From an uncultured Bacilli bacterium (lineage in GTDB: Bacteria > Bacillota_I > Bacilli_A > RF39 > UBA660), in assembly GCA_947623825.1 (NCBI GenBank), contig CANQHQ010000007.1, forward strand, positions 1-46,567: 46,567 bases of DNA. Direction: 5' to 3'. The notes under the pieces were generated by a model that was not told where the DNA came from, did no database searches, and was given only the letters and a program-made list of their open reading frames with translations. The stretch's first letter is position 1; every line of letters starts with the position of its first letter. Of the stretch, positions 3,459 to 28,684 are shown piece by piece. The translations under genes and the position numbers were made by a program.

Positions 3459-3464
3459 AAGGGT

Positions 3465-3560: not shown

Positions 3561-4457
3561 ATGGCTTTTCGAAGTGTTCTTGTAGAAAAAGCAGTCAAAA
3601 TTCATTTGGATTTGAATCATATTGTTATTCGTTATGAAGAAGAAGACTTTTGGATTTCCCTTGACGAAATTAGTAATTTAATAATTGATGATCCAAGGTG
3701 TTATGTTTCATTGAAATTATTATCTACACTTTGTGAAAAGGGAATCAATGTTATTTTTACAGATGGTTCTCATATGCCTATTGGTAGTTTCGTTACTCTT
3801 TATAATCATAGTCGTGCAGTCAAAAAAATAGAATCTCAGATGGAGTGGTCCGGGGAGATGAAAGATTATTTATGGACTGAGATTGTAAGAGCGAAAATGA
3901 AGGGACAAATTCATACATTGGAATTAATTGATAAAAAAGAAAAACTTCCAATTATGCGAAAATTATTAGAAGAAGTTTCTATTGGGGATTTAAATAACCG
4001 AGAGGGAATTGCTAGTAGAATTTATTTTAAATCTTTATTTGGAAATCAGTTTAAAAGATTTAGTGAGGATATTATTAATTATTCGTTAAACTATGTTTAC
4101 CAAGTCATTCGTTCGAAAATAAGTCAAGAAATTGTCTCATGTGGTTATTTACCTTCGATGGGATTATGCCATAAGAGCGAATATAATTTTTTTAATTTAG
4201 CGGATGATTTGATTGAACCTTTCCGTCCTATTGTCGATTATTTTGTCTATTCTCTTTTAGCAATGAACTCTAACGATTATTTAACACCGGATTTAAAAAG
4301 AAGTTTTGTAAATATTTTGAATGAAAAGATACTATATCATTCTAATGAATATAAAATACATATTGTAATACAATTTTATGTTCAAAATCTTTTTTCATTT
4401 TTAGAAACGGGAGACGTAAATAAAATTCAATTTCCATCGTTATTATGGATTATATAA
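3561..4457 (+). CDS. cas1: CRISPR-associated endonuclease/integrase Cas1 (type II)
   Basis: Catalytic subunit of the Cas1-Cas2 integrase that inserts new spacers at the leader end of the array. The protein is 298 aa, normal for type II Cas1. It has the family opening (MAFRSVLVEKAVKIHLDLN) and the expected metal-binding triad at Glu148 (NREG), His204 (LCHKSEYN) and Glu219 (IEPFRPIVD). The start is fixed by that N-terminal match, yet no Shine-Dalgarno is visible because the tracrRNA T-tract ends directly before the ATG. Translation efficiency and transcription are therefore likely low or conditional (inference). It overlaps cas2 by 13 nt, consistent with translational coupling. Confidence 0.97.
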   Translation: MAFRSVLVEKAVKIHLDLNHIVIRYEEEDFWISLDEISNLIIDDPRCYVSLKLLSTLCEKGINVIFTDGSHMPIGSFVTLYNHSRAVKKIESQMEWSGEMKDYLWTEIVRAKMKGQIHTLELIDKKEKLPIMRKLLEEVSIGDLNNREGIASRIYFKSLFGNQFKRFSEDIINYSLNYVYQVIRSKISQEIVSCGYLPSMGLCHKSEYNFFNLADDLIEPFRPIVDYFVYSLLAMNSNDYLTPDLKRSFVNILNEKILYHSNEYKIHIVIQFYVQNLFSFLETGDVNKIQFPSLLWII

Positions 4458-4792
4458 ATTATTATAAACAAATGCGTGTTTTATTAATTTATGATCTTCC
4501 GATGGAAGATGAAAAAAGTAGAAAAATATATAGTAAATTTCATAAGGATATTATTTCATTGGGATTTTATATGTTACAGTTTTCCGTTTATACGAAAGTG
4601 ATTCAAAATGAAACTGTTTTTAAACAGCAATATATGAAATTGGAAAGGATAATTCCGACAAAGGGAAATATTATGATTTTAAGAGTTACAGAAAAGCAAT
4701 ATCAAGATATGATTTATTTTACTGGTGAAAAAAATAAATTTGAAATGTTGGTGGGTGGAAAAGAGTTGGTAGTATTTGGAGATAAAGAATGA
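4445..4792 (+). CDS. cas2: CRISPR-associated protein Cas2
   Basis: Structural partner of Cas1 in the adaptation complex. It has the ferredoxin-like Cas2 opening RVLLIYDLPM with the conserved Asp17, then SLGFYMLQFSVYTK and the C-terminal strand ELVVFG. It is 115 aa. The ATG at 4445 lies inside the end of cas1. Met10 (4472) is an alternative start, but a short N-terminal extension is common in type II-A Cas2. The end overlaps the next gene in an ATGA arrangement. Cas2 here is judged structural rather than nucleolytic on family grounds. Confidence 0.95.
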   Translation: MDYINYYKQMRVLLIYDLPMEDEKSRKIYSKFHKDIISLGFYMLQFSVYTKVIQNETVFKQQYMKLERIIPTKGNIMILRVTEKQYQDMIYFTGEKNKFEMLVGGKELVVFGDKE

Positions 4793-5682
4793 TTTTGTTG
4801 AAAATAAATGATGAATATCACGATTCTGTTTTTCGAATTCAGAAAGAGAATCGTGTGTTAGACACTGGAAATTATATTATGAATTTTTATTTGTTCTTTT
4901 ATAGGAAAATTGTAGAAAAAGATGATAAATTATCAATTATTATGAATGATATTTCTGTTGATTCTAAAAATTATGTTCTTGTTAATTTATTAGATTTTGA
5001 GCAAGTAATTAAAGAACTCTATTATAAAAAGGGTTCATTATTATATGAATATGTTAATGTGAAAATAATGAAATCTTATGATTGCTTTGATTTAACTTTT
5101 TTTACTGATATTTATAATGAATGTTGTAACTGTTTTCGTGATACATTTGTTGCAGTTTCTCCAGTTGTTGAGGAAAATTTGATAAAATTGATTCAAAATT
5201 TTTATCAATTTTCTGTTGATTATTCTGATTGTGAGACTATTTATCGGTTTATTTTTGAAATTTTAAAATTGGTAATGGAAGAAAATCCTTTAAAAAAATA
5301 TATTATTTTTTATAATTCCGAAATTTTACATTTTGACTTTTCTAAATTTGATAATTGTTATAGTTTTGATGTAGCAAAAAATTATGAATTTAAAAATTAT
5401 AATTTTATGATAGGTGAAACTGTTTTTAGGGAAATTCATTGGGATATTGTTTTTGCAGAAATTGAAAGACTTTGGCCAAATGCTTATCGTTTTGACAAAA
5501 TTTATTCCTACTTAGAAAAATATTTTAATTATTATTTTTTTAGGAAAAAAATAATTTTGAGTGAACAAGATGAAATTATTTTGGCAACTATTTTAAATAA
5601 AATTTTTGACCTGAAAAAAAATCTCATATTTGATTTCTCTTCTTTGGATAACAATGTTCAATCCTTTTTGACTGCTTTATAG
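4789..5682 (+). CDS. Divergent Csn2-position protein (putative long Csn2)
   Basis: A 297-aa protein occupying the csn2 position, overlapping cas2 by 4 nt. Csn2 forms a DNA-end-binding ring needed for spacer acquisition in subtype II-A. Sequence similarity to ordinary Csn2 (about 220 aa) is weak. What can be seen is an order of segments resembling Csn2: an N-terminal beta-rich part, LSIIMNDISV then NYVLVNLLDF like the Csn2 core strands, a helical middle (about 110-165), and KKYIIFYNSEIL like the later core strand. About 85 extra C-terminal residues, rich in aromatic and lysine residues, have no counterpart I recognise. No Walker A motif is present. The codons are very AT-rich. The array promoter -35 lies in its last codons. 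Position supports Csn2; identity by sequence alone is uncertain. Confidence 0.6.
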   Translation: MILLKINDEYHDSVFRIQKENRVLDTGNYIMNFYLFFYRKIVEKDDKLSIIMNDISVDSKNYVLVNLLDFEQVIKELYYKKGSLLYEYVNVKIMKSYDCFDLTFFTDIYNECCNCFRDTFVAVSPVVEENLIKLIQNFYQFSVDYSDCETIYRFIFEILKLVMEENPLKKYIIFYNSEILHFDFSKFDNCYSFDVAKNYEFKNYNFMIGETVFREIHWDIVFAEIERLWPNAYRFDKIYSYLEKYFNYYFFRKKIILSEQDEIILATILNKIFDLKKNLIFDFSSLDNNVQSFLTAL

Positions 5683-6486: not shown

Positions 6487-8142
6487 ATGGATTCGAAAGA
6501 CGAACTTTTAAAACAGGTTTGTGTTCATTTATCTAGTTATGCCTCTGAAAAGATTCGATATGCGTGTGATAAAGTTTTTCAAGAAGAAAGTGATATTTTA
6601 TCTAAAATTAAACAAATGAAAAAAATATCTAGTAATCTTTCTTATCATTCTGATTATTCCCGTGATGGTTATTTTTCTACTCGTAATCAAATATTTTATC
6701 AACAGGCTAAATTTATGGTAGATGTGGAAGATAAATATATGCATATGGTTACACCTATGTATACGTATTATTGGAACTACGACTCGTTAGAAATTCCTGA
6801 ATTAAGAACGTATTTGACTTGGAGAACGAAATTTCGAAAAGGGGAGTATCCTAAAATTTCTACTTCATATCTATTCGTTTATTGTAGTGAAATTATTAAT
6901 TTAATTGGATTTCAAAATCCTGATGAGGCTTTTCAAACTTTAAAAACACTAATTGATGTGTATTACAAAGATATTACAGAACCTTATTATTTGACTTTAT
7001 TTCGAAAAGTAGTTAAAGATTTTATTATTAATTATCAACTTCCTATTTCTTGTCAGGAGTATTACCAAATGTTTTCGCTAGAGGATGCTTATCGTTTACA
7101 CCAACAAAGAGAAAAAGTTTTTTTGGGTCAATACGATGGTGTTTTTTCCTATTTAGATCAGAATTCTAGTTATAAGGTTTCGAAAAGTTCTTTTTACTCT
7201 TCTCCTTATGGATTTTTAGTAGAAAGAGCGATTCCTAAAGTTTTTTCTCAGTTAGAAATGTGTTTTCAAAAGAATGGATATGATTTTAAAAAAATTGTAT
7301 TTGGGGAAATGAGAGTATATGATAACTATCCACTCTTTCAAGAATTTCCTTATGTGGAAACAAGAGAAAATGGTTCTCGAGAAGTACTTTTTTCTACTTT
7401 AGATACCTATTTTTATAAAGATAAAAGATGGTCTGCACATCTCTTTGTAGAAAGTCCCAATAATCGTCCTCTGTTAGGAATTTTTTTGAAGAAAATAGAA
7501 TCTCGTATTCGTGAAAAAACAAAATATAAAAGAACAATTACAGTCAATTATTCTTTATCGGGAAAAGTTATGAATATGAGACGTTCTTTTCTTGACTTTA
7601 TCGAAGGAGGAGAAATAAACTCTGTCATTGAAAAGGCAGTAGATACTTTTTTAATAGAAGCGCAGCAGTCTATTAGAAAGGAAAGACAAGAACAAAGAAT
7701 GCAGTCTATTGTCGTTGAAAAAGAAAAATTTGATGAAATTCGAAAAGCGACGGAACGGATTCAAGAAAAATTAGTTACAGAAGACGAAAGAAGAGAAGAA
7801 ATTCCTGTTGCGATTTCTCCACCTTCTTCGGTACAAATAGGAGAAATTCCTGAACAAGAATCAAATACGGAAATGGGTATGATGGCTCTAGTTCAACATT
7901 TCACAGAAGTAGAAAAACGATTTATAGAAGGTGTCCTTTCTGGATATTCGCGTAAGGACTTACAACAAATGGCGAGTGAACAACAGGAATTACTGGAAGT
8001 GTTTATGGAGAATATTAATATTAAAGCATTGGAATTTATTAGTGATAATTTAATTGAAGATTTGATTGATTCCATCGAAATATATGAAGACTATCGAGAG
8101 GAATTAACTCAGTGTCTTGAGGAGGAAAAACATGGAGAATAA
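6487..8142 (+). CDS. TerB-N/TerB-C domain protein
   Basis: A 551-aa protein, first gene of a three-gene operon with the ATPase and helicase that follow. The TerB-N signature spans about 65-270, with the order YFSTRNQIFYQQAKFM, YYWNYDSLEIPELRTYLTWR, KGEYPKISTSYLFVYCSEIINLIG. A beta/alpha middle (about 280-395) and a charged linker (about 400-465) follow. A helical TerB-C-like end covers about 470-551. The classical central TerB metal-binding domain appears absent. TerB-N/TerB-C proteins are known to sit beside P-loop ATPases and SF2 helicases in predicted DNA-processing or defence loci. Tellurite resistance itself is not implied. The ATG follows AGGAGG at 6475-6480. The molecular role is unknown. 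Confidence 0.8.
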   Translation: MDSKDELLKQVCVHLSSYASEKIRYACDKVFQEESDILSKIKQMKKISSNLSYHSDYSRDGYFSTRNQIFYQQAKFMVDVEDKYMHMVTPMYTYYWNYDSLEIPELRTYLTWRTKFRKGEYPKISTSYLFVYCSEIINLIGFQNPDEAFQTLKTLIDVYYKDITEPYYLTLFRKVVKDFIINYQLPISCQEYYQMFSLEDAYRLHQQREKVFLGQYDGVFSYLDQNSSYKVSKSSFYSSPYGFLVERAIPKVFSQLEMCFQKNGYDFKKIVFGEMRVYDNYPLFQEFPYVETRENGSREVLFSTLDTYFYKDKRWSAHLFVESPNNRPLLGIFLKKIESRIREKTKYKRTITVNYSLSGKVMNMRRSFLDFIEGGEINSVIEKAVDTFLIEAQQSIRKERQEQRMQSIVVEKEKFDEIRKATERIQEKLVTEDERREEIPVAISPPSSVQIGEIPEQESNTEMGMMALVQHFTEVEKRFIEGVLSGYSRKDLQQMASEQQELLEVFMENINIKALEFISDNLIEDLIDSIEIYEDYREELTQCLEEEKHGE

Positions 8143-9454
8143 AATACCGAAACGAATTGCTACATCCTTATTAAATTCTTTAAAAGGTGGGGTAGTCCCA
8201 CGTACTGGATTGGGTTATATCGCAGTAGGAAGAGAAAAAGAAATTAATGCCTTATTAAAAGATGTGGATATCATTGCGGACGGAGGTGCCACTTTTCGAT
8301 TCATCGTCGGAAAATATGGAAGTGGAAAAAGTTTTTTATTGCAAACGATTCGAAATCATGTGATGGACAAAGGATTTGTTGTGATGGATGCCGACTTATC
8401 TCCTGAACGAAGATTAATGGGAACACAAGGACAAGGACTTGCGACTTATCATGAATTGATTACGAATTTATCTACTAAGACGAAACCGGATGGAGGGGCT
8501 TTACCTCTTATTTTGGAACGGTGGATTTCTTCTATTCAAAGTGAAGTGAGAATAAGTCAATCCTTTTCTGCTGATAGTCCCGAGTTTTCGAGAGAAGTAG
8601 AAAAAAGAATTTATGAGACTGTTAGTCAAGTAGAAGGAATGGTTCATGGATTTGATTTTGCTAAAATGATTCAACAGTATTGGATTGGATATCAAACAGG
8701 AAATGATGAGTTAAAAAATAATGTTTTGCGGTGGTTACGGGGAGAGATTCCAACGAAAACTGAATGTAAACAACTCTTAGGAGTAAATATTATTATTTCT
8801 GATGATAATTGGTATGATTATGTTAAAATTCTTGCTTTATTTTTAGTAAAAGCGGGATATAAAGGAATGCTTCTTTTGATTGATGAATTAGTCAATTTAT
8901 ATAAGATTTCTTCTTCTATTACTAGACAAAGTAACTATGAAAAGATTCTTACTATGTATAACGACACTTTACAAGGAAAAGCCCAGTATTTAGGGATTAT
9001 TATGGGTGGAACGCCTCAATGTGTCGAAGATACAAGAAGAGGAATTTTCAGTTATGAGGCTTTGAAATCGCGATTAGAAGATAGTCGTTTTGCGGATGAA
9101 GAAGCAAGAGATTTTTTTGCGCCTATTATTCGTTTGAAGCCATTGACTCCATCTGAAATGACAATTCTTGTGGAAAAATTAACAAATATTCATGCGGATT
9201 TATATGAGTATCCAAGAAAGATTAAAGAAGAAGAATTGATTGAATTTATTAAGATAGAATTTAGTCGTGTAGGGGCGGCGAAACAAATTACACCGAGAGA
9301 AATTATTCGTGATTTCATCGAACTTTTAAATACGTTATATCAGTATCCGGAAAAAAGTTTATTGTCAATTATCGAGAGTGATTCTTTCCAATTTTCGGAA
9401 AGTCAGGATACAGATGATGTGATTATAGATGAGTTTGCGAGTTTTGAATTATGA
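8132..9454 (+). CDS. BrxD-like P-loop ATPase (DUF2791 family)
   Basis: A 440-aa ATP-binding protein of the family containing BREX BrxD. Walker A is GKYGSGKS at residues 60-67, and Walker B is LLLIDE ending at Asp251-Glu252. The family block DADLSPERRLMG follows the first helix, and IMGGTPQ lies in the sensor region. In BREX type 2 such ATPases work with a large helicase. Here the partners are a TerB-N protein and an SF2 helicase, with no PglZ, PglX methyltransferase or BrxC visible, so this is not a BREX system. The ATG at 8132 is preferred to the upstream TTG at 8117 because GAGGAGG overlaps the latter. The gene overlaps the TerB gene by 11 nt and the helicase by 4 nt. Confidence 0.88.
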   Translation: MENKIPKRIATSLLNSLKGGVVPRTGLGYIAVGREKEINALLKDVDIIADGGATFRFIVGKYGSGKSFLLQTIRNHVMDKGFVVMDADLSPERRLMGTQGQGLATYHELITNLSTKTKPDGGALPLILERWISSIQSEVRISQSFSADSPEFSREVEKRIYETVSQVEGMVHGFDFAKMIQQYWIGYQTGNDELKNNVLRWLRGEIPTKTECKQLLGVNIIISDDNWYDYVKILALFLVKAGYKGMLLLIDELVNLYKISSSITRQSNYEKILTMYNDTLQGKAQYLGIIMGGTPQCVEDTRRGIFSYEALKSRLEDSRFADEEARDFFAPIIRLKPLTPSEMTILVEKLTNIHADLYEYPRKIKEEELIEFIKIEFSRVGAAKQITPREIIRDFIELLNTLYQYPEKSLLSIIESDSFQFSESQDTDDVIIDEFASFEL

Positions 9455-11592
9455 GTGCTTTTGATGAATTAGCCCCTTTTATACAAGATTATATCTATCG
9501 AAATCATTGGGAAGAATTAAGAGATATTCAAGTTGCGAGTATCGATGTGATTCTTCATTCGGATGAAAATTTATTATTATCTACTGGAACAGCGAGTGGA
9601 AAAACGGAGGCTGCTTTTTTGCCAATTTTAACAGATTTGTATTTTCATCCATCTCATTCTGTTGGTGTTTTATATATTAGTCCTTTAAAGGCTTTAATTA
9701 ATGATCAATTTGAACGTCTTACAGATTTATTAATAGAAGCAGATTTTCCTGTTCATAAATGGCATGGGGATGTTTCCGATAGTCATAAAAATCAATTGCG
9801 AAAGAATCCGAAAGGACTTCTTCAAATTACTCCTGAATCGTTAGAATCTATGCTTACTTATCGAAAGCAGGAGGCATTGAAATTATTTTCTGATTTACGA
9901 TATGTTGTGATTGATGAAGTTCATTATTTTATGGGAGAAAATCGTGGCATTCAACTTCTTTGTTTATTAGAACGTCTTTCTCGACTTACTTCTTGTTCTC
10001 CACGAAGAATTGGCTTAAGTGCGACGGTGGGAAATCCTATCGAGGTAGCAGAGTGGTTATCGAGTGGAAGTCATCGTAGTTGTTCGGTTCCTCAGGTATC
10101 TGGTGGAAAAAGAACCGCTCATTTGATGATTGATCATTCGTTAATAGAATCCGACTTTTATGATAAACTTTACGATTTATCTTTTGGTAAACGTTGTATT
10201 ATTTTTTCGAATAGTCGTAGTGAAGTAGAATTAAATATTGCCAATTTGAAATTATTGGCGAATCGAAAAAAAACACCCGATATCTATTATACGCATCATG
10301 GAAATGTGTCCGGTGGTTTGCGAGAATATGCTGAAAAAGAGATGAAGAGTGGGGAACAAAAAACGGTCATTGGAGCGACCGTAACTCTAGAACTTGGAAT
10401 TGATATTGGGGATTTGGAACGGATTATTGAAACGGGAACGCCGTACTCTGTATCTAGTTTTGTTCAACGGTTAGGTCGAAGTGGGCGAAAAACGGGAATC
10501 AGTGAAATGATGTTTCTTTTTAATAAAAAAGATCAGGATGATACGGAACAAAAGAATAAAGATTTTTATCAACAAATCGATTGGGATATGATTCTTTGTA
10601 TCGCTTTGATTGAACTTTATACGAAAGAAAAATGGATTGAACCATTAAAACAGGCAGAACTTCCTTATCCTCTTTTGTATCATCAAACTATGTGTTATTT
10701 GACTTCTCGAGGAAGTGCGACTCCTCAAGAGTTGGCACAATTCATGCTTACTCTTTCTCCTTTTACGAAAATTTCTCAAAAAGATTATCAAACTTTATTG
10801 AATTATCTTGTTTCTATTCGACAATTGGAACAAGATGAAGAGGGAAATTTATTAATTGGAGAACAGGGAGAACGAACGATTTCTCGTTATCAGTTTTTGA
10901 CTGTTTTTGAGAATGAGATTGAATTTTCAGTACGATATGAAAGTAGGGAAATAGGAACGATTAATACCTTGGTTCCTGTCGGAGAAACTTTGATTTTAGC
11001 AGGTAGTAGTTGGAGAGTACAGGAAGTAAATCCAGAAAAACGGCAGGTGTTTGTGAAACCGATTCGGGGGATTTCGAAAAGTTATTGGGATGGACCAGAT
11101 GAGGTTATCATTGATACGATGATTTTGAAAAAGATGCGTGATATTTTAAAGAGTGATGAAGTGTATCCTTATTTACGTCAAAATGCCAAAGATTTACTAG
11201 AAAAGAGTCGTCAAATTTTTCGAAATGCTACTTTAGATCAAGAGTCGATTGTTATTTTATCGGATCATTGTTGGGGATTGTTTCCTTATTTGGGAACGAA
11301 GTCTTTGACCACCTTGCAGTATGCTTTGGGAAAACATGGCATTCCTTCTCATATTATGAATATTTATCGGATTCCTGTCTTTCTTCATATTGATCAATCG
11401 TTATCAAAGAAGGATCTTATGGATGCTTTGAAAGAAATCAAAACAGAACATTTATCACCTGAAGATTTTCATGTGGGAAATGCGGTGATTCAGGAAAAGA
11501 ATATTCAATATGTACCGAAAGAATTATCTAAAAAACATTATTTAAAAGATTATATTGAAATTGAAAAGATGCAGAGAGATTTAGAATTTTAA
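9451..11592 (+). CDS. SF2 DEVH-box helicase (Lhr/BrxH-like)
   Basis: A 713-aa superfamily 2 helicase, third gene of the trio. It has motif I GTASGKT at residues 46-52, motif Ia YISPLKALINDQ, motif II DEVH at 155-158, motif III SAT, then the C-terminal RecA lobe with TLELGIDIGDLE and motif VI QRLGRSGR at 339-346. A helical domain (about 380-490) and a C-terminal accessory region of about 220 residues follow, the latter resembling the beta-rich tail of Lhr-type helicases. No nuclease motif is recognised. The ATGA overlap with the ATPase gene implies coupled production. ATP-driven remodelling of DNA with the BrxD-like ATPase is the most likely role (inference). Confidence 0.9.
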   Translation: MSAFDELAPFIQDYIYRNHWEELRDIQVASIDVILHSDENLLLSTGTASGKTEAAFLPILTDLYFHPSHSVGVLYISPLKALINDQFERLTDLLIEADFPVHKWHGDVSDSHKNQLRKNPKGLLQITPESLESMLTYRKQEALKLFSDLRYVVIDEVHYFMGENRGIQLLCLLERLSRLTSCSPRRIGLSATVGNPIEVAEWLSSGSHRSCSVPQVSGGKRTAHLMIDHSLIESDFYDKLYDLSFGKRCIIFSNSRSEVELNIANLKLLANRKKTPDIYYTHHGNVSGGLREYAEKEMKSGEQKTVIGATVTLELGIDIGDLERIIETGTPYSVSSFVQRLGRSGRKTGISEMMFLFNKKDQDDTEQKNKDFYQQIDWDMILCIALIELYTKEKWIEPLKQAELPYPLLYHQTMCYLTSRGSATPQELAQFMLTLSPFTKISQKDYQTLLNYLVSIRQLEQDEEGNLLIGEQGERTISRYQFLTVFENEIEFSVRYESREIGTINTLVPVGETLILAGSSWRVQEVNPEKRQVFVKPIRGISKSYWDGPDEVIIDTMILKKMRDILKSDEVYPYLRQNAKDLLEKSRQIFRNATLDQESIVILSDHCWGLFPYLGTKSLTTLQYALGKHGIPSHIMNIYRIPVFLHIDQSLSKKDLMDALKEIKTEHLSPEDFHVGNAVIQEKNIQYVPKELSKKHYLKDYIEIEKMQRDLEF

Positions 11593-13111: not shown

Positions 13112-15241
13112 ATGAAATACATCAAATATTTATTCATCATTTTTAGTCTTTTATTTTTGTGGACAACGGAGAACGTGTTTGCGCAAAGTGATCAGTTTTA
13201 TGAAGGAGAGTCTGTTACGGGTGCCTATTTAAAGAAATTTAAACCGGGCGCTTCTTCCGGAAAGTATGAACAAATGAAAATTTTTCGACGTGTCAGTGAT
13301 AATGCACCTGCGTATTGTATTGAACTTTGGGAGACTTTGGGTTCTTATCAAGATCTTCCAGCGTATCAAGAGAACTATCCTTTTTATGCTGGGATTTCAG
13401 AGGCTGCTTGGAATCGAATTCAATTGATTTCTTACTATGGTTACGGATATGGTAATCATACAGAAGATCGTTGGTATGCTGCTAGTCAATTTTTGATTTG
13501 GAAAACATTGGAACCAAATAGTACCATTTATTTTACTGATACACTGAATGGAAATCGGGCATCTAAATTTGAAAGTGAAATGCAGGAAATTGAAAGTTTG
13601 ATTCTTCGTCATTCGACGGTTCCTTCTTTTGGAGAAACTCCTAAAAAGGAAAAATTTCTTGCCAATGGGACGTATTCTTATTCTGATACCAATCAAGTAT
13701 TACATGATTATGAACTTACTTTTTTTGATTCCGGTATTTCTTGTGAAATTCAAACGGATACGTTAGTGGTTCACGCTTCGAAACCGGGAACGTACTCTTG
13801 CGCGTTTCATAAGAAAAAAGAAGCGAATCGTTCTCTTCTTTACGTGTCTTCGACGGGACAGGATTTAATTGTTCGAGGAGATTATCCAGTTGTTTCTACG
13901 ACTTTTCAAATTCAAATCGAGGGTGGGAGATTTCGTTTTCGTAAAGTAGATCAAGAAACGAAACAAACAGAACCACAAGGAATGGCTAGTTTTGAAGGAA
14001 CAGTCTATGGTCTTTACGATACCAATCATCGTTTGATTGAAAAAATTTCGTTCTATCAGGAAGGAGAACTCGTCCTTTCTAGTTATCTTCCCTATGGTAC
14101 TTATTATGTCAAGGAATTGGAAAGTGGAAAAGGGTATTTGTTGGATCCTCTAGAACATGAAATTACCTTAGATCAAGAAGAAGTATCCATCGATTTACTC
14201 GATCAAGTTTATAAAGGAAAAGTGCTTCTTCATAAACTTTATGGAAGTGGGAATTTTTGGCAGGGAGAGTATCAAGCAAAGTTTGAAATTTATGATGATG
14301 AAGATCAATTGTATACGACGATTGTCACCAATTCTTCTGGTTTTGCATCTGTGGAACTTCCTTATGGACAGTATCGTTTTCATCAGGTAGCTGGGAAGAC
14401 CAATTATGAATATGTCGAAGACTTTTTTGTTGATCTTACGGATTTATCTCGAAAAGAATTTTCTTTCGAATTAAAAAATTCGATTCTTACGCGGTATTTA
14501 CAGGTACAAAAGAAAGATCTAGAAACGAGAGAACGGATTCCTTATTCCCATGCCCAATTTCGGATTTTTCATCTAGATACAGAAGAGTATATTTCTTATG
14601 TGAAAAATGGGAAACGAACGACGATTTTTGAAACCGATTCAAATGGAATGTTTTTAACTCCGGAACCGCTTCCGGCGGGAAATTATCGATTAGAGGAAGT
14701 CAAGGCTCCAGAAGGGTATCTTCCTCTTCAAGAAAGTATTCTTTTTTCTATTTCGGAAGATACTGCTTGGGAGGAAGTGGAAGACTATGGAAAAACGATT
14801 TTCTTAGAAGTGTTCAATTCGAAAAAGAAGGGGAGTCTTTCCTTAAAAAAAGTAGATGCCGATACGGGCGAGTTTCTTCCTCAAGCAACCTTTTCTCTTT
14901 ATACCGAGGATGGGACTTGGATTACGGATTTGACTACAGATGAAAATGGTTCTCTTTTCGTCGATTCTCTTCCTTATGGTAAGTATTATCTTCTTGAAAT
15001 AGAAAGTCCTGAGGGATATCAACTTTCTCAGGAAAAAATTCCTTTTACCATTCAAGAAGAGGGGAAAGTGGTTTCTTTAGTGGTTTCGAATACGATGTTA
15101 CTTCCACCGAAGACGGATGTGACAATTTCCAAAAAAGATGTCAAACATTTTTTACTTTCGGAAATTTGGTTAGGAACGATGGGACTCTTTTTCTGTGATT
15201 CTTCGTTTTCTCGTCGAAAAAAAGCCAAGGAAAACTGTTAA
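13112..15241 (+). CDS. Secreted thioester-domain, Cna-B repeat surface protein
   Basis: A 709-aa predicted adhesin or pilin-like wall protein. The signal peptide covers residues 1 to about 24 (hydrophobic, ending VFA). Next is a thioester domain with the expected pair Cys69 (PAYCIELW) and Gln126 (YAASQFLIW), a family that binds host or surface amines covalently. Four Cna-B/SpaA-like beta sandwiches follow at about 270-360, 370-455, 458-572 and 575-662. They have KVD and KKVDADTG lysine motifs and EVKAPEGY/EIESPEGY glutamates, the usual isopeptide partners. The tail has PPKTD (665-669), a short hydrophobic stretch and RRKK, resembling a sortase signal but not canonical LPXTG. No sortase is encoded in the window. 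The gene stands alone, divergent from mtaD. Confidence 0.85.
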   Translation: MKYIKYLFIIFSLLFLWTTENVFAQSDQFYEGESVTGAYLKKFKPGASSGKYEQMKIFRRVSDNAPAYCIELWETLGSYQDLPAYQENYPFYAGISEAAWNRIQLISYYGYGYGNHTEDRWYAASQFLIWKTLEPNSTIYFTDTLNGNRASKFESEMQEIESLILRHSTVPSFGETPKKEKFLANGTYSYSDTNQVLHDYELTFFDSGISCEIQTDTLVVHASKPGTYSCAFHKKKEANRSLLYVSSTGQDLIVRGDYPVVSTTFQIQIEGGRFRFRKVDQETKQTEPQGMASFEGTVYGLYDTNHRLIEKISFYQEGELVLSSYLPYGTYYVKELESGKGYLLDPLEHEITLDQEEVSIDLLDQVYKGKVLLHKLYGSGNFWQGEYQAKFEIYDDEDQLYTTIVTNSSGFASVELPYGQYRFHQVAGKTNYEYVEDFFVDLTDLSRKEFSFELKNSILTRYLQVQKKDLETRERIPYSHAQFRIFHLDTEEYISYVKNGKRTTIFETDSNGMFLTPEPLPAGNYRLEEVKAPEGYLPLQESILFSISEDTAWEEVEDYGKTIFLEVFNSKKKGSLSLKKVDADTGEFLPQATFSLYTEDGTWITDLTTDENGSLFVDSLPYGKYYLLEIESPEGYQLSQEKIPFTIQEEGKVVSLVVSNTMLLPPKTDVTISKKDVKHFLLSEIWLGTMGLFFCDSSFSRRKKAKENC

Positions 15242-15302: not shown

Positions 15303-16445
15303 ATGAAGAAAATCAGTATTTTAGCCTTACATTTAGGTCACGGTGGAATCGAGAAGTGTATTACGAATTTGGCCAATTTGTTATGTCAGGATTATGAGGT
15401 GGAAATTCTTTCTACTTATCATTTGAGTGAACCTGCATTCGATATTGATCCTAGAGTAACTGTGCGTTATTTAATTGAAAAGTATAAACCGAATCGTGAG
15501 GAGTGGAAACAATCTATTCGAAAGTTCAAACCTATTTCTTTTTTAAAAGAGTCTTATAAGGCTCTTTTGGTGTTGTTACTTCGGCGCAGAAAAACAGTGG
15601 AAGCGATCAAACAATGCGATAGTGAAATTATCATTTCTACGAGAGAACTATTTAATTCTTGGTTAGGAAAATATGCCCCTTCCCATGTTTATAAAATTGG
15701 TTGGGAACACAATCATCATCATCAGGATGTTCAATATATTGAAAAGGTAGTTTCTTCTTGTAAAAATTTAGATAGTTTTGTTTTAGTATCTGATTCCCTA
15801 CGTTCTTTTTATAAGAAAGAATTTCGAAAAAGAGGGATGAAATGTAAATGTGTTTATATCCCCAATATGTTGGATTCGATTCCTGAAAAAGTTTCTACTT
15901 TGAAAGAAAAACGTCTGATTTCTATTGGGCGGTTTTCGCCCGAAAAAGGTTTTGTAGATTTAATTGAGGTATTTAAAAAAATTCATGAAAAAGAACCAGA
16001 ATGGAAACTTTGTCTTGTTGGAGATGGGGCCGAGAAAAATAAAATTGTCGATACCATTTATCAATATGGACTTACTAATTTTGTAGAACTTCATGGTTTT
16101 TTACGGAAAGAAAAAGTCGATGAATTGTTGTCTCATTCTTCTATTTATTTGATGACTTCTTATACGGAATCTTTTGGGCTTGTTTTGATTGAAGCCATGT
16201 CTCATGGAATTCCTTGTGTGGCTTTTACTTCTGCGGAAGGTGCGAACGACTTAATCGAACATGAGAAAAATGGATATTTAATTGAAAGCCGAGATTTTGA
16301 TGCGATGGCCAATCAGGTAGTTTCTTTGATAGAGAGTCTTTCTACTAGAAGACAATTGGGGAAAATGGGACGAAAGAAAAGTATGAATTATACAAAGGAC
16401 TGCATTCAAGATAGTTGGCTTCAATTATTAAAGAAGAGGGGATAA
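15303..16445 (+). CDS. Glycosyltransferase family 4
   Basis: A 380-aa GT-B fold glycosyltransferase, first gene of a polysaccharide cluster. The N-terminal lobe opens with ALHLGHGGIEKCITNLANLL, the typical acceptor-side glycine-rich loop of GT4. The C-terminal donor lobe has SIGRFSPEKGFVDLIEVF, LVGDGAEK and the E-x7-E motif (Glu289, Glu297) in ESFGLVLIEAMSHGIP. It should act at the inner membrane face on a lipid-linked sugar; donor and acceptor cannot be told. It is followed after 2 nt by the PssD-like gene. Confidence 0.88.
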   Translation: MKKISILALHLGHGGIEKCITNLANLLCQDYEVEILSTYHLSEPAFDIDPRVTVRYLIEKYKPNREEWKQSIRKFKPISFLKESYKALLVLLLRRRKTVEAIKQCDSEIIISTRELFNSWLGKYAPSHVYKIGWEHNHHHQDVQYIEKVVSSCKNLDSFVLVSDSLRSFYKKEFRKRGMKCKCVYIPNMLDSIPEKVSTLKEKRLISIGRFSPEKGFVDLIEVFKKIHEKEPEWKLCLVGDGAEKNKIVDTIYQYGLTNFVELHGFLRKEKVDELLSHSSIYLMTSYTESFGLVLIEAMSHGIPCVAFTSAEGANDLIEHEKNGYLIESRDFDAMANQVVSLIESLSTRRQLGKMGRKKSMNYTKDCIQDSWLQLLKKRG

Positions 16446-16447
16446 AA

Positions 16448-16927
16448 ATGAAGAAAAAACCTAAGGTCTTATTTATTTCTAGTACCGGCGGTCATTTGAG
16501 TGAATTAATGTGTTTAGAGTCTCTATGGAAAAAATATGATTTTGAAATTATTACGGAGAAAATTGCCTCTAGTTTTTTTCTTGAAAAAAAATATAAAAAT
16601 AAGGTTCATTATTTGATTTATGGAACGAAAGATCATCTTTTCTCTTATCCTTGGAAATTATTAGGAAATTGTTTTAAAAGTCTCTATTATTATTTTCGTT
16701 TTCGTCCTCGTTTTATTGTGACAACCGGGGCTCATACGGCTGGACCGATGTGTTGTATTGGAAAATTGTTTGGTTCTAAAATTATTTATATAGAATCCTT
16801 TGCGAATATTCAGACGAAGACTATTACGGGAAGATTACTTTATCATTTTGCAGATTTGTTCCTTGTTCAATGGGAAAGCATGTTGCAACTGTATCCAGAG
16901 GCTACGTATGGTGGATGGATTTATTAA
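16448..16927 (+). CDS. PssD/Alg14-like membrane anchor subunit of a glycosyltransferase
   Basis: A 159-aa protein. The ATG at 16448 is chosen because GAGGGG lies 7-12 nt upstream; a longer reading would run into the previous gene. It has the Alg14 opening VLFISSTGGHLSEL, then RFIVTTGAHTAGPMCCIGKLFGSKIIYIESFAN and a C-terminal LVQWE. In this family Alg14/PssD recruits the catalytic Alg13/PssE subunit to the membrane to add the second sugar to a polyprenyl-diphosphate sugar. The gene that follows encodes that partner. Confidence 0.85.
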   Translation: MKKKPKVLFISSTGGHLSELMCLESLWKKYDFEIITEKIASSFFLEKKYKNKVHYLIYGTKDHLFSYPWKLLGNCFKSLYYYFRFRPRFIVTTGAHTAGPMCCIGKLFGSKIIYIESFANIQTKTITGRLLYHFADLFLVQWESMLQLYPEATYGGWIY

Positions 16928-16939
16928 AGGGAGGAGTTT

Positions 16940-17797
16940 ATGATTTTAGTTACTTTAGGAACACAAGATAAAAGCTTTGAACGATTGTTGCGGGAAATGG
17001 AACTTTTGATTCAACAAAAAGTGATTCGTGAAGAAGTAGTGGTTCAAGCAGGTTATACGGAGTATTCGAGTCAGTATATGAAAATCGTTGATTTCTTACC
17101 GAAAGAAGAATTGGAAAAATTGCTTTCTTCTTGTCGTTTTCTTATTACCCATGGTGGAGTTGGAAGTATTTTTGATGGACTTTCTCATAAAAAGAAAATC
17201 ATTGCGGTTCCTCGTTTGGCTCAATATAAAGAACATACCAATGATCATCAACTTCAGGTCATCACAGAACTAGGAAAAGAGGGATACCTTCTTCCTTGTT
17301 TTGATGTAAAAGATTTGAAAGCCTGTTTGACGCAATTAAAAAGTTTTGTTCCGAAACCTTATACGGGAAATCATGAATTGATGTTATCAACGATAGATAA
17401 GTTTATTGAGAAAGAAATAGAACATCCAACGAATCGTCAAGGACGGTTTGTTGGCATTACGATCTGTTTTCAAGTTCTCTTTCTTTTGTGTTTCCTTTTC
17501 TTCCAAAGATTTCTTTCTTTGGAATGGGTCAATCATCTTTTGAGTTTTCTTGTTTCTATCGGCTTTCTTTTCTTTTTCCTTACTTGTTTTGGAAAAGAGA
17601 AATTCGATCATATAAAAAAATTATGTCTCTTTGTTTTGATTTCTTATGGTATTCATTTTCTTAGTTTCTTTTTGTTTTCTTCTTTCTCCTTTTGGGGAAG
17701 GTGGATTATCTCTTTTCTTCTTTCTTTTTTCTTTGGGTATATTTGGCTCTTTCTCTTTTGGGGAAATTTGGTCTTTATGAAACAAAGAGCGAAATAA
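16940..17797 (+). CDS. PssE/Alg13-like glycosyltransferase fused to a four-helix membrane domain
   Basis: A 285-aa protein. Residues 1 to about 155 are a complete Alg13/PssE domain: MILVTLGTQDKSFERLL, then ITHGGVGSIFDGL and PRLAQYKEHTNDHQ, the UDP-sugar binding loops. Normal PssE ends near there. Here residues about 168-285 add four strongly hydrophobic helices, with layout and polar loops resembling GtrA-type flippases. The next gene encodes a GtrB-like transferase, the usual partner of GtrA, which supports that reading. The fusion is seen directly; the GtrA assignment is inference. It starts with GGAGG at 16930-16934. Confidence 0.75.
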   Translation: MILVTLGTQDKSFERLLREMELLIQQKVIREEVVVQAGYTEYSSQYMKIVDFLPKEELEKLLSSCRFLITHGGVGSIFDGLSHKKKIIAVPRLAQYKEHTNDHQLQVITELGKEGYLLPCFDVKDLKACLTQLKSFVPKPYTGNHELMLSTIDKFIEKEIEHPTNRQGRFVGITICFQVLFLLCFLFFQRFLSLEWVNHLLSFLVSIGFLFFFLTCFGKEKFDHIKKLCLFVLISYGIHFLSFFLFSSFSFWGRWIISFLLSFFFGYIWLFLFWGNLVFMKQRAK

Positions 17798-17860
17798 GCC
17801 CAATTTCTTTTTTTATTCCGTGTTTTTATGATATGATAATAATAATCATGGAGGTAGTAT

Positions 17861-18838
17861 ATGAAAGTAATATCAATTGTGGTTCCTTGTTATAACGAGG
17901 AGAAGTCTCTTCCTCTTTTTTATGAAGCGGTTGTCAAGGTTGCAGAAGAGATGAAAAAGGATGCGGAGTTCGAATTTGTCTTTGTCAATGATGGTTCGAA
18001 AGACGGGACACTAAACGCATTACGAAAATTAGCCCATCAAGATGAACGGGTGCATTATTTGTCTTTTTCTCGTAATTTTGGAAAAGAAGCAGCCATGTTT
18101 GCAGGGTTAGAAAAAGCATCGGGAGATTATGTGACAACGATGGATGCCGATTTACAAGATCCTCCTTCGTTACTTAAGAAAATGTTTTCTATTTTGGAAG
18201 AAGGAGAATATGATTGTGTTGCCACTCGGAGTACCAATCGAAAAGGGTATTCTTTCTTTCGTAAACTCTTTACTCGATGGTTTTATGCCTTAATTGGAAA
18301 AATGTCAAAGACAGAAATGGTTCCTGGCGCTAGAGACTTTCGTTTAATGACAAGACAGATGGTCGATGCGGTTTTATCGATGCGAGAATACAATCGTTAT
18401 ACAAAGGGATTGTTTAGTTTTGTTGGGTTTGATACGTGTTGGATTGAATTTCAATTGGAAGAAAGAGTGGCAGGAAAGACGAATTTTAATTTACGTAAGT
18501 TATTTGCTTATGCGATTGAAGGAATTGTGGCTTTTTCTACGACACCTCTTGTGTTGGCGGGAATTATTGGCCTTTTCTTCTGTTTCATTGCGGCTATTTT
18601 GATTCTTGTTATTATTGTTAAAACATTGATTTGGGGTGACCCAGTCGATGGTTGGCCAAGCCTTGTTTGTATTTTATTCTTTCTTGGTGGAATTCAATTA
18701 TTTTGTACGGGGATTATCGGAGAGTATTTGGCTAAAACTTATTTAGAAACGAAGCATCGTCCGATTTATATTGTCAAGGAGACAGAAGATAGTTATCGAG
18801 AGAAAAAACATGAAAAGGAAAGAGGAACCGAAGAATGA
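17861..18838 (+). CDS. GtrB/DPM1-like family 2 glycosyltransferase
   Basis: A 325-aa polyprenyl-phosphate sugar transferase. The GT2 domain has SIVVPCYNEEKSLP, FVNDGSKDGT, the SFSRNFGKEAAMFAGL block and the metal-binding TMDADLQDPP. Two C-terminal membrane helices (about 230-262 and 272-298) are standard for GtrB. It probably loads a sugar onto undecaprenyl phosphate for flipping by a GtrA protein, possibly the domain fused to the preceding gene. GGAGGTAG precedes the ATG, and an extended -10 TGATATGAT at 17829-17837 may give it its own promoter. It overlaps galE by 4 nt. Confidence 0.88.
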   Translation: MKVISIVVPCYNEEKSLPLFYEAVVKVAEEMKKDAEFEFVFVNDGSKDGTLNALRKLAHQDERVHYLSFSRNFGKEAAMFAGLEKASGDYVTTMDADLQDPPSLLKKMFSILEEGEYDCVATRSTNRKGYSFFRKLFTRWFYALIGKMSKTEMVPGARDFRLMTRQMVDAVLSMREYNRYTKGLFSFVGFDTCWIEFQLEERVAGKTNFNLRKLFAYAIEGIVAFSTTPLVLAGIIGLFFCFIAAILILVIIVKTLIWGDPVDGWPSLVCILFFLGGIQLFCTGIIGEYLAKTYLETKHRPIYIVKETEDSYREKKHEKERGTEE

Positions 18839-19854
18839 AGATACTCGTTACAGGTGGATGTGGCTTCATTGGGAGCCATACCGTTGTCGAATTGTTAGAA
18901 GCAGGATATGAAGTAGTCGTGATTGATGATTTTTCGAATTCCCGCCGCAGTGTTTTAGATGCCATTCAAGAAATTACAGGGAAAGTTCCTTTCTTTTACG
19001 AAGGGGATGTGAAAAAGAAAGAACTTTTGCGCAAAATTTTTCGAGAACATTCCATCGATGCAGTCATTCATTTTGCGGGGTATAAGGCAGTAGGGGAATC
19101 GGTTCAACAGCCCTTGAAGTATTATGAAAATAATTTGGAATCGACTGTTCATTTATGTGAAGTGATGAGTGAATTTTCTTGTAAGAAATTGGTTTTTTCT
19201 TCTTCCGCTACAGTGTATGGGAGCCCTAAAAGTTTACCTATTAGAGAGGATTTTCCTCTTTCTACTACCAATCCTTATGGAACGACAAAGTTGATGATTG
19301 AAAACATTTTAAGAGATTTGGTCGTGTCGGATTCTCATTGGAGTATTGCGTTACTTCGTTATTTTAATCCGATTGGTTGTCATGCTTCCGGTTTGATTGG
19401 GGAAGATCCGAAAGGAATTCCGAATAATTTAATGCCTTATATCTTAAAGGTTGCGATGGGAGAACTTCCTCATTTGAATGTATTTGGAAATGATTATGAT
19501 ACCAAAGATGGAACCGGTGTCCGTGATTATATTCATGTGGCGGATTTGGCTCGCGGTCACTTAAAAGCCATTGAATATGTGATGAATACGGAAGGAATCG
19601 ATGCCTATAATTTAGGAACAGGAAAAGGGTATAGTGTTTTGGATTTAGTAAAAACCTTTGAAAAAGTAAATCATGTTTCGATTCCGTATGAAATCCGTGC
19701 GAGACGTCCAGGGGATATTGCCATTTGTTATGCCGATCCTAGTTATGCCAAAGAAAAGTTAGGTTGGTGTGCGGAAAAAGATTTGGAAACTATGTGCTTG
19801 GATGCTTATCGCTATGTGGCAAAACAAGCCCATAAGGAGGAGAAGGTGGAATGA
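18835..19854 (+). CDS. galE: UDP-glucose 4-epimerase
   Basis: NAD-dependent short-chain epimerase interconverting UDP-glucose and UDP-galactose, supplying donor sugars to the adjacent glycosyltransferases and the Leloir path. It is 339 aa, typical for GalE. The Rossmann motif is GGCGFIGSHT near the N-terminus, with Ser-x-x-Tyr148-x3-Lys152 catalysis (NPYGTTK), the family strings RYFNPIGCHASG and DGTGVRDYIHVADLA, and GTGKGYSVLDLV. ATGA overlap with the previous gene. Confidence 0.95.
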   Translation: MKILVTGGCGFIGSHTVVELLEAGYEVVVIDDFSNSRRSVLDAIQEITGKVPFFYEGDVKKKELLRKIFREHSIDAVIHFAGYKAVGESVQQPLKYYENNLESTVHLCEVMSEFSCKKLVFSSSATVYGSPKSLPIREDFPLSTTNPYGTTKLMIENILRDLVVSDSHWSIALLRYFNPIGCHASGLIGEDPKGIPNNLMPYILKVAMGELPHLNVFGNDYDTKDGTGVRDYIHVADLARGHLKAIEYVMNTEGIDAYNLGTGKGYSVLDLVKTFEKVNHVSIPYEIRARRPGDIAICYADPSYAKEKLGWCAEKDLETMCLDAYRYVAKQAHKEEKVE

Positions 19855-25469: not shown

Positions 25470-26015
25470 ATGGCAAATACAAGAGAAATTGTTACTAAAG
25501 CGGTAATTGGCAAAGGAAAGAAAACTTTTGTGACAACGGATGTGATTACTCCGGAGATTGTGCCTACCACTATCCTTGGTGCGTGGATTATTAATCATAA
25601 CTTTTCAGGAAATCAGATAGGAGATAAGGTCCTTATTAGTGGAAGCTATGACGTTAATATTTGGTATTCATGTATGGAAGATAGTAAAACAGAAGTCGTA
25701 AAAAAGAGTGTACAATATCAAGAAAGTGTTTCTGTTCCTAGAAAAAGCGATGTTTCATCTTTATCGAATGAAGAAGTGGTTATACGTAGTCTAAAACAAC
25801 CAACTTGTACTAGAGCGGAAATTGTCGATCAAAAAATTGAATTTACGGTAGAAAAACAATTAGGAATTGAAATTGTTGGAGATACGAAAGTAAAAATTAG
25901 TTATGATGAAGAAGAAGATCCTTGGGAAGATATTGAGGATGTTGATTCTGAAACAGTCGTCGAAGAAGCAGAAAAACAAATTGATGCGGAAGTTAAAGAA
26001 GAATACTTGGATTAA
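25470..26015 (+). CDS. cotE: CotE-like outer spore coat morphogenetic protein
   Basis: A 181-aa protein, the same length as B. subtilis CotE and in the same place after miaB-ymcA. The shared pattern is clear: REIVTKAVIGKGKK at the start, then TTILGAWIINHNF, GSYDVNIWYS, TEVVKKSVQY, QPTC and VVGDTKV, ending in a long acidic tail with DPWEDIED. CotE directs outer coat assembly around the forespore. The gene has its own GAGGAGGG site and sits between terminators. A sigma-E type promoter would be expected, but I could not define one in the short upstream gap. Confidence 0.9.
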   Translation: MANTREIVTKAVIGKGKKTFVTTDVITPEIVPTTILGAWIINHNFSGNQIGDKVLISGSYDVNIWYSCMEDSKTEVVKKSVQYQESVSVPRKSDVSSLSNEEVVIRSLKQPTCTRAEIVDQKIEFTVEKQLGIEIVGDTKVKISYDEEEDPWEDIEDVDSETVVEEAEKQIDAEVKEEYLD

Positions 26016-26047
26016 TTTTCTTTCTTTTGTCTTTATGAAAAGGGAAC

Positions 26048-26068
26048 GTGCCTTTGGGGCACTTTTTT
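26048..26068 (+). terminator. Rho-independent terminator after cotE
   Basis: GTGCC 26048-26052, loop TTTGG, GGCAC 26058-26062, then TTTTTTC. Confidence 0.85.
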
Positions 26069-26510
26069 CTTTGGAAAAATGATGAGAATGGAAAAGTTTA
26101 GAAACCGGTTCTTATTTTTTCATTTTGATGGATTTTTTTCCATTTGTCATACAATGGATTCTTTTCCCATTTGTCATATTGTCTTTGAATTTTTTGCTTT
26201 CTTTGTTATACTTAAATTGAAACATCAAATCAAACCTCTTTCATGTTTGATTTGACAATTTCGTTTGATGGTGGTTTCTGGTTTTGATTTTTATCAAAGT
26301 TGTGTTAAACAATGTTCTTTCCCTGAATGATACAATAGAATCCAAAAGAAACGAATTGTATTATTTTATCAAAAATATGAAATAGAAATATTTGAGGTTT
26401 CCATAGTTATTTTCGTTGTAGTTACATCGTGTGAGTTAGAAAAAGAACCGCTTTGAAAATTGTTTGGACTATGTTTGTATTTGGTAAAAAAATAATGATT
26501 GGAGGAAAAA
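26069..26510 (+). promoter_or_regulatory. Long noncoding leader of the sugar module with repeats and a hairpin
   Basis: About 440 nt without a gene. It holds a tandem near-duplicate of about 27 nt (CCATTTGTCATA at 26140-26151 and 26167-26178, each preceded by ATGGATT and a T run). It also has a perfect 10-bp stem, CAAATCAAAC 26226-26235 with GTTTGATTTG 26245-26254, and an extended -10 TGATACAAT at 26328-26336. The predicted 5' leader would be about 170 nt. No known riboswitch class is recognised. Confidence 0.5.
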
Positions 26511-27450
26511 ATGGAAAAAGAAGTATTGGTGACTGGTGCCGCAGGATTTATTGGTTCTGCTGTCAGTAAAAAGTTGATTGGGGGGGGGGTACAAAGTTGT
26601 TACTATCGATAATTTGTCTACGGGAAGACTAGAAAATATTCCAGAACAATGTGAATATTATATAGGGAACGTATATGATGAAGAAATCCTTACCCAGTTA
26701 GAAAAATATCATTTTGAGGCAATTATCCATATTGCGGGACAAAGTTCTGGAGAGGTTAGTTTTGAAGATCCTGTTTATGATTTCAATACGAATGCGATGT
26801 CTACTTTATTGTTGTTACAATTCGCTAAAAGAAAAGGAATTCAAAAGTTTATTTATGCCAGTTCTATGTCTGTCTATGGAGATCATGAAGAAGAATTGGT
26901 TGATGAATTATCACTTACTGTTCCTAAATCTTTTTATGCTGTAGGGAAATTAGCTAGTGAAAATTATATGCGTATTTTTTCGTCTTATGGAATTCAAACT
27001 ACTGCGTTGAGATTCTTTAACGTTTATGGAATTGGACAAAATATGGATAATTTGAAACAAGGAATGTTCAGTATCTATCTTGCCCAAGGGATTGATAACC
27101 ATCATATTTTGGTTAAGGGATCAAAAGATAGATTTCGTGACTTTGTCTATATCGATGATGTGGTCGATGGAGTCTTGTTTGCCATGAATCGAACGGATGG
27201 TGCCCCATTCGAAGTATTTAATATCAGTACAGGGAAAAAGAAAACAGTGGAAGAATTAGTAACTACTATTCAAGAACAGTTGCCTTGGGATGTAACTGTC
27301 GAATATGTCGAAGGAACTCCAGGAGATCAACATGGTATTTATGGGGATAATCAGAAGGCAAAAGAACTTTTGCAGTGGGAGCCAGAAGTCGATTTTGAAG
27401 AAGGTTCCGCGAAAATGATTCGATGGGCATTGGAAAGGAGAAGAAAATAA
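26511..27450 (+). pseudogene. NAD-dependent sugar epimerase/dehydratase, out of frame at a 10-G tract
   Basis: The reading frame from the ATG at 26511 (after GGAGGAAAAA) gives EVLVTGAAGFIGSAVSKKLIGGG and then stops within a few codons. The rest of a normal epimerase (YKVVTIDNLSTGRLEN, the YAVGK catalytic pair, ALRFFNVYGIGQ, RDFVYIDDVVDGV) is in another frame. The break is exactly at G 26580-26589. With nine Gs the gene reads through as 312 aa, the usual size of UDP-sugar 4-epimerase-like SDR enzymes. The tract length suggests slipped-strand phase variation, with this copy in the OFF state, though a sequencing error in the homopolymer is possible. An internal start at TTG 26578 would lack most of the NAD-binding loop. 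It is followed after 1 nt by a nucleotidyltransferase gene. Confidence 0.88.
26580..26589 (+). repeat. Homopolymeric G10 tract (putative phase-variation switch)
   Basis: Ten consecutive Gs in an AT-rich genome, 70 nt into an epimerase gene. Loss of one G, or gain of two, restores the full reading frame. Confidence 0.9.
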
Positions 27451-27451
27451 G

Positions 27452-28195
27452 ATGAAAGTTTATGCATTATTAACGGGACGTGGAAATAATACATTGCGAG
27501 ATAAAAATGTGTTAGATGTCCTTGGAAATCCAGTTTTATATTATCCAGCTACGGCGGTAAAAGCTTCCAAATATGTAGATAAATTATATTGTTCTAGTGA
27601 TGACGATAAAATCTTAGAACAAGCACAAAAAATTGGTTATGAACCGATTCGTAGACCTATGGAATTGGCTCTTCCAACAGCGCAACATATTGATTGTATC
27701 TATCATGCCTTAGGAGAAATCCAAAAGAAAGAAGAGATGCCAGATATTTTGGTTGTTATATTGGCTAATAATGTAACAGTTCAGACTGAGTGGGTGGATG
27801 ATTGTATTCAAACGATGTTGGATGACGATAGTATTACAGGTGTGGTTCCCGTTTATTTAGATAATGATCATCATCCATATCGGGCGAAAAGAATCGATTC
27901 AAATGGAAATCTTGTTATGTTTGATTCTTCTCATGCTTCTAAAGCGATTTCTTCTAATCGTCAAGATTTACCAGAGTGTTATTTTCTAGCCCATAATTTT
28001 TGGGTTTTAAACGTCAAGACTTTACTTGATCAAAATTGTATGGGAGAACCACCGTGGGGATTTATGGGAAATAAAGTAAAAGGATATCCTATTGAAGAAT
28101 CGATTGATATTCATGACCTCAGAGATATCGAATTGGCTAAAATGTGGGTTGAAGAGAATCGCTCAGATGTAAAAGTGAAAAAGTATCAGAAATAG
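27452..28195 (+). CDS. CMP-sugar (acylneuraminate-type) cytidylyltransferase
   Basis: A 247-aa GT-A-like nucleotidyltransferase that should activate a nonulosonic or related acid sugar with CTP. The signature is MKVYALLTGRGNNTLRDKNVLDVLG, then KYVDKLYCSSDDDKILEQAQ and RRPMELALPTAQHIDCIYHAL, and later ANNVTVQTEWVD and PIEESIDIHDLRDIELA, as in NeuA/PseF-type enzymes. Compared with classical family members the nucleotide loop GRGNNTLRDKN is somewhat altered, so the sugar cannot be named. It is translationally close to the phase-variable epimerase (1-nt gap, GGAGAAG inside that gene). Frame breaks upstream may also reduce its expression by polarity (inference). Confidence 0.8.
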   Translation: MKVYALLTGRGNNTLRDKNVLDVLGNPVLYYPATAVKASKYVDKLYCSSDDDKILEQAQKIGYEPIRRPMELALPTAQHIDCIYHALGEIQKKEEMPDILVVILANNVTVQTEWVDDCIQTMLDDDSITGVVPVYLDNDHHPYRAKRIDSNGNLVMFDSSHASKAISSNRQDLPECYFLAHNFWVLNVKTLLDQNCMGEPPWGFMGNKVKGYPIEESIDIHDLRDIELAKMWVEENRSDVKVKKYQK

Positions 28196-28225
28196 TGTTT
28201 CCTTTTCTGATTGACTTGATGATAT

Positions 28226-28262
28226 AAGAGACAATTTTCTCCTTTTTAGAAAGTTGTCTCTT
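28226..28262 (+). terminator. Probable terminator after the sugar module
   Basis: AAGAGACAATTTTCT pairs with AGAAAGTTGTCTCTT around a short pyrimidine loop. The T tract after it is weak. Confidence 0.6.
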
Positions 28263-28356
28263 CTCATTCCATGTTTTTAATTAGAAATATTTTTCATTGA
28301 TTTTGAAATGAAGCGGATGAAATAAGCAAAAAAATCACACTGTTAATAAAAAATAC

Positions 28357-28385
28357 TTGACAGTGATAGTAAGAAAGATTATAAT
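28357..28385 (+). promoter_or_regulatory. Consensus promoter of rpsP-khpA
   Basis: TTGACA 28357-28362, a 17-nt spacer, TATAAT 28380-28385: a perfect consensus, fitting a ribosomal protein gene. Confidence 0.9.
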
Positions 28386-28417
28386 GATATTGAAAAAAGG
28401 AAATGGAGGAGAAAAAT

Positions 28418-28684
28418 ATGGCAGTAAAAATAAGACTTACACGTATGGGAGCAAAGCAAAGACCAAGTTATCGTATTGTCGCTAGCGATTCTAGAGTAAA
28501 ACGTGATGGAAAATACTTAGAATTAATTGGAACTTATGATCCACTAGCAAAACAAACCAAGATCGATGAAGAACTCGCTATGAAGTGGTTAGAGTGTGGA
28601 GCTCAACCATCAGACACAGTCAGAAATTTATTCAGCAAGGCTGGAATTATGAAGAAGTTTGCTGATAAGAAGCAAGGGAAGTAG
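28418..28684 (+). CDS. rpsP: 30S ribosomal protein S16
   Basis: An 88-aa ribosomal protein with the invariant opening [26 protein letters not shown], then [13 protein letters not shown]. The ATG at 28418 is chosen over 28403 because the earlier one lies in the GGAGGAG ribosome binding site. khpA follows after 3 nt. In many Firmicutes rimM, trmD and rplS come next; here they are absent. Confidence 0.98.

Follow-up and report, generated by a model that had tools for sequence, protein, structure and literature searches.

Campylobacter and Neisseria are known to switch surface-glycan genes by means of poly-G tracts inside the coding sequence (PMC9187656). By lineage, the described system nearest to the locus analysed here is that of Mycoplasma agalactiae, where a poly-G tract in gsmA switches the capsular glucan (PMC12103780; cited too in PMC9187656). 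The likeness lies in an in-gene poly-G tract that would turn a surface polysaccharide gene ON or OFF. However, gsmA is a glucan synthesis gene of a wall-less animal pathogen, while the present locus is an epimerase gene in an acquired cassette, found in a lineage still equipped with cotE, MutS and MutL, and its switch is proposed from sequence. The original prediction had called poly-G slippage rarely reported in Firmicutes, a statement that gsmA requires to be qualified. The best match among gut commensals is Bifidobacterium breve UCC2003, a Gram-positive bacterium outside the Firmicutes in which in-gene G tracts switch pili; deep sequencing showed mixtures of tract lengths, and the assembled genome was out of frame (PMC9187656), which is also the assembled state here. 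The genes concerned in this actinomycetote are pilin genes, whereas the present one is a glycan gene known from one assembled length.

Poly-G tracts can also act outside coding sequences. In Neisseria meningitidis, that of porA lies between the -35 and -10 promoter elements, with 11 Gs giving high, 10 Gs about half and 9 Gs low expression (PMC3639595). This layout is shared by 12 of the 16 long G tracts in the genome studied here (the sister loci), but not by the in-gene tract of ten Gs (G10) under study, and it concerns one gene in porA against about two dozen promoters per genome, at most, in the lineage described below. The poly-G phasomes of Campylobacter and Helicobacter (PMC6321876, PMC2823697) are alike in their many G tracts per genome, tied to variable expression of surface-related genes; they belong to another phylum, whereas the tracts reported here are mostly in promoter spacers and coexist with MutS and MutL.

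A ten-G tract in an epimerase-family gene

The window, i.e. the whole stretch of DNA analysed (46,567 nt; contig C7, 33.8% GC, of a source genome of 1.48 Mb in 61 contigs), contains a gene of the NDP-sugar epimerase/dehydratase family (extended SDR) on the forward strand at positions 26511..27450, the reading frame of which is broken by a G10 tract at 26580..26589. The tract begins 69 nt into the gene, counted from an ATG at 26511 that is preceded by a Shine-Dalgarno sequence, GGAGG (26501..26505, read directly). At the assembled length, direct reading gives a frame of 33 aa that ends in a TAA at 26610 (26511..26612). Past the tract, a 290-aa open frame runs from a TTG to the stop at 27450 (26578..27450). 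Since no ribosome site is visible at this TTG, and since it lies 3′ of the nucleotide-binding motif GxxGxxG, which the 290-aa ORF lacks, the latter alone should give no working enzyme. The 286 codons 3′ of the tract are uninterrupted, with no second lesion.

When the two parts are joined, the resulting 312-aa read-through has its best match among solved structures in the UDP-glucose 4-epimerase 4zrm, over residues 4-302 (E 3.8e-53), and the portion 3′ of the tract matches the Pfam Epimerase family (5.9e-41). GxxGxxG is kept 5′ of the tract and YxxxK 3′ of it; together with the full-length match, these motifs place the joined product among the extended SDR NDP-sugar epimerases/dehydratases. It did not reach the threshold for GalE itself (TIGR01179; 133.4 bits against a curated cut-off of 262.3, with 290 of the 312 aa scored). 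Intact homologues 61% identical to the read-through were found in two Lachnospiraceae MAGs (L028 and L029). Neither has a G run at the tract site, where they read KRLAGENEV and KWLLANGHRV and the window reads KKLIGGGYKV. As the homologues carry ordinary codons there, the read-through is of normal length, and the G run is an addition made in the host lineage or its donor.

A run of this length is exceptional in the window, where the longest other G or C run is of 5 nt. Run statistics based on the remaining window sequence gave an expectation of 0.00004-0.0014 G10 tracts per window and of no more than 0.05 per whole genome. Three consecutive GGG codons are absent from every other window gene, and GGG makes up 15% of glycine codons. 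The tract is thus longer than chance would allow and is placed where its length shifts the frame of a gene intact on either side, two of the features expected of phase variation by simple sequence repeats. The original prediction, which saw in the window a single long G run disrupting, some 70 nt from its start, a gene otherwise complete at 312 aa, is borne out on each of these points, the two joined parts aligning almost end to end both with intact homologues and with solved epimerases. Use of the tract as a promoter spacer was considered and rejected: the best pair of hexamers had 4 mismatches out of 12 at a spacing of 21, and the tract is in-gene.

In the proposed switch, DNA copying would add or remove Gs, and the 3′ part of the gene would enter or leave the frame. 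The assembled length would yield the 33-aa stub only (OFF), whereas lengths that restore the frame would give the complete 312-aa enzyme (ON). Supply of an activated sugar to a surface glycan would probably be switched in this manner, resulting in clones unlike in surface chemistry. We infer that the tract slips in the living population, that it does so reversibly, that an activated sugar is made, and that this sugar serves at the surface.

The inserted sugar-gene cassette and its surroundings

One nt past the epimerase stop starts the gene for a CMP-sugar synthetase-like cytidylyltransferase (27452..28195, forward strand; Pfam CTP_transf_3, 3.2e-7). The PseF pseudaminic acid model (TIGR03584) scored it at 72.3 bits, under the curated cut-off of 205.7. 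One of the two Lachnospiraceae MAGs (L029) has a close homologue of the cytidylyltransferase adjoining that of the epimerase, indicating that the two genes belong together; their probable product is an activated sugar that enters a surface glycan. Both lie in an inserted region of ∼2.4 kb (26016..28402), delimited by comparison with congeners, between cotE (25470-26015; CotE Pfam, 4.1e-44) and rpsP (28403-28684), which forms its 3′ flank. In the congeners (G002, G005, G009, G015 and others) the gap between cotE and rpsP is of only about 110-150 bp, with no insert. Epimerase homologues were absent from 16 congeners at E < 1e-30 and from 290 other family genomes at E < 1e-40; a plasmid collection contained nothing nearer than Azospirillum epimerases (35% identical), and the flank of G10 had no match in a scan of IMG/VR. 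The cassette itself contains no glycosyltransferase, a point against a surface-glycan role, and promoter candidates for it were no better than those in shuffled sequences. The sugar-gene pair was acquired as a cassette, and its proposed switch is of the type that the host lineage itself uses.

Elsewhere in the window, a type II CRISPR-Cas locus (177-5682) encodes a Cas9 of 1091 aa, a protein of 297 aa that matches Csn2 weakly (1.4e-4), and ORFs taken as Cas1-like and Cas2-like from their position. A three-gene defence operon (6487-11592) matched PADLOC SngA, SngB and SngC (E 2e-50, 2e-189 and 5e-219, respectively), with matches to BREX-like BrxD and BrxH as well. The product of 13112-15241 is a surface protein of 709 aa that combines a thioester domain with four SpaA repeats; its gene adjoins a series of glycosyltransferase genes (15303-18838), followed by a GalE-like gene (18835-19854).

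Poly-G tracts elsewhere in the source genome

While G10 is the sole long G run of the window, the uniqueness originally ascribed to it does not extend to the genome, which contains a further 15 runs of at least eight Gs; the genome analysis covered the stretches around these tracts. The resulting 16 tracts, of G8-G11, compare with 0.2-1.7 runs of G8 or more expected, and in all 16 the Gs belong to the sense strand of whichever gene is touched. Four tracts are in-gene: besides that of the epimerase, they lie in two glycosyltransferase genes of L009, both with G8, one of them GT99-like (in frame) and the other GT6-like (split), and in an acyltransferase gene (L016; G10, split). In the same region (L009, on G000 C1), two near-identical GT6-like gene starts lie close together, the second of which enters a stretch of Ns that makes its tract unreadable. 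The other 12 tracts are in promoter spacers. They include the arrangement TTGACTTTTCAAGG-N-Gn-TATACT 5′ of genes for von Willebrand/InlB-repeat surface proteins, TTGCCAAAACGACAC-Gn-TATAAT 5′ of a GT99-like gene and a cytidylyltransferase gene, and TTGAC..Gn..TTATTATA 5′ of secreted-protein genes. One GT99-like paralogue has its tract in-gene (EKGGGYPF), while the other reads EKQGAYPF and has a tract in its promoter instead. Near-identical promoter flanks were found with unlike tract lengths, both in the source genome (G11 in L017, G8 in L018) and in congener G002 (G9 in L117, G10 in L121). At the 12 sister tracts, tract length would set the distance between the -35 and -10 elements. The idea of an in-gene switch therefore stands for the epimerase but does not describe the larger system, which is mainly transcriptional.

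These tracts bear on two other explanations of the broken frame. The cassette could be a recent acquisition that the host does not need, inactivated for good by one indel in its G run and not reversibly switched, an explanation possible for the epimerase locus alone. It would fit a gene that is out of frame in the sole assembly and a cassette insertion unique among the family genomes searched. It fits poorly with an open remainder that keeps its motifs, with a tract so unlikely by chance, and with a genome that retains the further tracts in surface-related genes, and it is improbable. The second explanation relies on the fact that homopolymers can promote slippage: with the DNA unchanged in length, slippage of RNA polymerase or of the ribosome on the G run would provide some full-length enzyme constitutively. 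The preserved frame 3′ of G10 would suit such recoding, but like tracts serve in promoter spacers, where DNA length alone can matter, and as the sole explanation it is highly unlikely; recoding could act on top of a replication-slippage switch. The latter remains favoured, since the tract exceeds chance, the remainder of the gene is open and the other in-gene tracts also lie in glycan genes. G10 is thus likely to be an ON/OFF switch of the sugar-nucleotide epimerase, produced by replication slippage, as originally proposed, a candidate backed strongly, if indirectly, by the evidence from tracts in the genome, family and class.

If the switch is real, cells of one genotype would differ in surface type, as many as 16 loci of the genome acting in a binary or graded way. 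Such diversity would matter to phage resistance, host recognition and colonisation, in bacteria known from little besides metagenomes. Annotators should be aware that a surface gene called 'frameshifted' in an assembly of this sort may have been captured in its OFF state and need not be a pseudogene.

Promoter-spacer tracts in the family and class

Tracts were counted as promoter spacers if the flanking sequences had at most two mismatches in total to TTGACA plus TATAAT. This was so for 12 of the 16 tracts in the source genome and for 20 of 30 in congeners, against none in the opposite orientation and 2-3% with shuffled flanks. These sister loci have the porA-like arrangement, a G tract between -35 and -10 at a spacing of ∼17. 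The pattern TTGAC-N(1-12)-G8-TAT was then found at 205 sites in the family, distributed over 55 of 291 genomes and 42 of 150 genera; the control, the reversed pattern, had none. Two family genomes hold more than 20 promoter tracts each (maximum 23), with tracts of 8-12 Gs directly 5′ of the -10 element. A class-wide scan allowing a wider gap matched 32 of 296 genomes, in eight families (f1, f7, f13, f16, f18, f19, f20 and f21), with about 70 sites against 2 in the control. The distance from -35 to TAT peaked at 17-19 (47 of 70), again with tracts of 8-12 Gs; at such spacers, one G gained or lost should alter promoter strength, an effect measured at porA (PMC3639595). A hydrophobic N-terminal segment was present in the products of 37 of 47 genes behind tract promoters (the 47 not being phylogenetically independent) compared with 5 of 41 window genes.

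The orientation of the tracts also bears on whether the tenth G is a consensus or assembly error, the true population length being in frame. Homopolymers are error-prone, G10 and its count of ten come from one assembly, and at least one congener contig (G009 C23) starts with more than 30 Gs in an artefact-like manner. Against this, G10 is internal to its contig and has unique flanks; genome-wide, the tracts hold one orientation to promoter hexamers with no control matches, which an artefact cannot bring about; and a tract of nine Gs there would remain a candidate for slippage. An error is quite unlikely. A two-colour sequencing artefact as the source of the tracts genome-wide was rejected on the same grounds, constant orientation to the hexamers and a control of zero. 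The position of tracts near contig ends was considered as a sign of length mixture in the sample; 3 of the 16 lie within 500 bp of an end (p 0.026), a weak signal that the repetition of promoter copies confounds.

The source genome encodes MutS1 and MutL, and nearly all family genomes MutS and MutL, so loss of mismatch repair, which some class members do lack, is not needed to account for the poly-G tracts and was rejected as their cause. Class members of this kind, small genomes and cotE would fit an RF39-like lineage. Their presence does argue against switching in one respect, in that slippage rates could stay low.

That the epimerase gene is phase-variable is very probable, and switching of this in-gene kind is already known. 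For the larger poly-G system no description was found: the literature searched, mostly open-access papers, contained no account of promoters switched by poly-G in RF39, Erysipelotrichaceae or gut Firmicutes. The family-wide promoter tracts are a larger finding than the epimerase tract itself. With somewhat less assurance than for the epimerase, the tracts point to a poly-G contingency system that spans a class of small-genome, mostly uncultured Bacillota and consists of about two dozen promoters per genome at most plus in-gene tracts in glycan genes. Such a system would provide combinatorial phase variation of the surface in species that retain MutS and MutL, and would recruit acquired genes such as that of the epimerase.

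Two congeners (G003 and G012) have G9-G10 tracts beside or inside long ORFs of other genes (L088 and L083), which are further candidates for in-gene switching. The scan of IMG/VR for the promoter pattern returned one viral contig, with TTGACA-N-G8-TATAAT on the minus strand (L114, 2319-2344); the same switch may operate on a gene of a phage or prophage.
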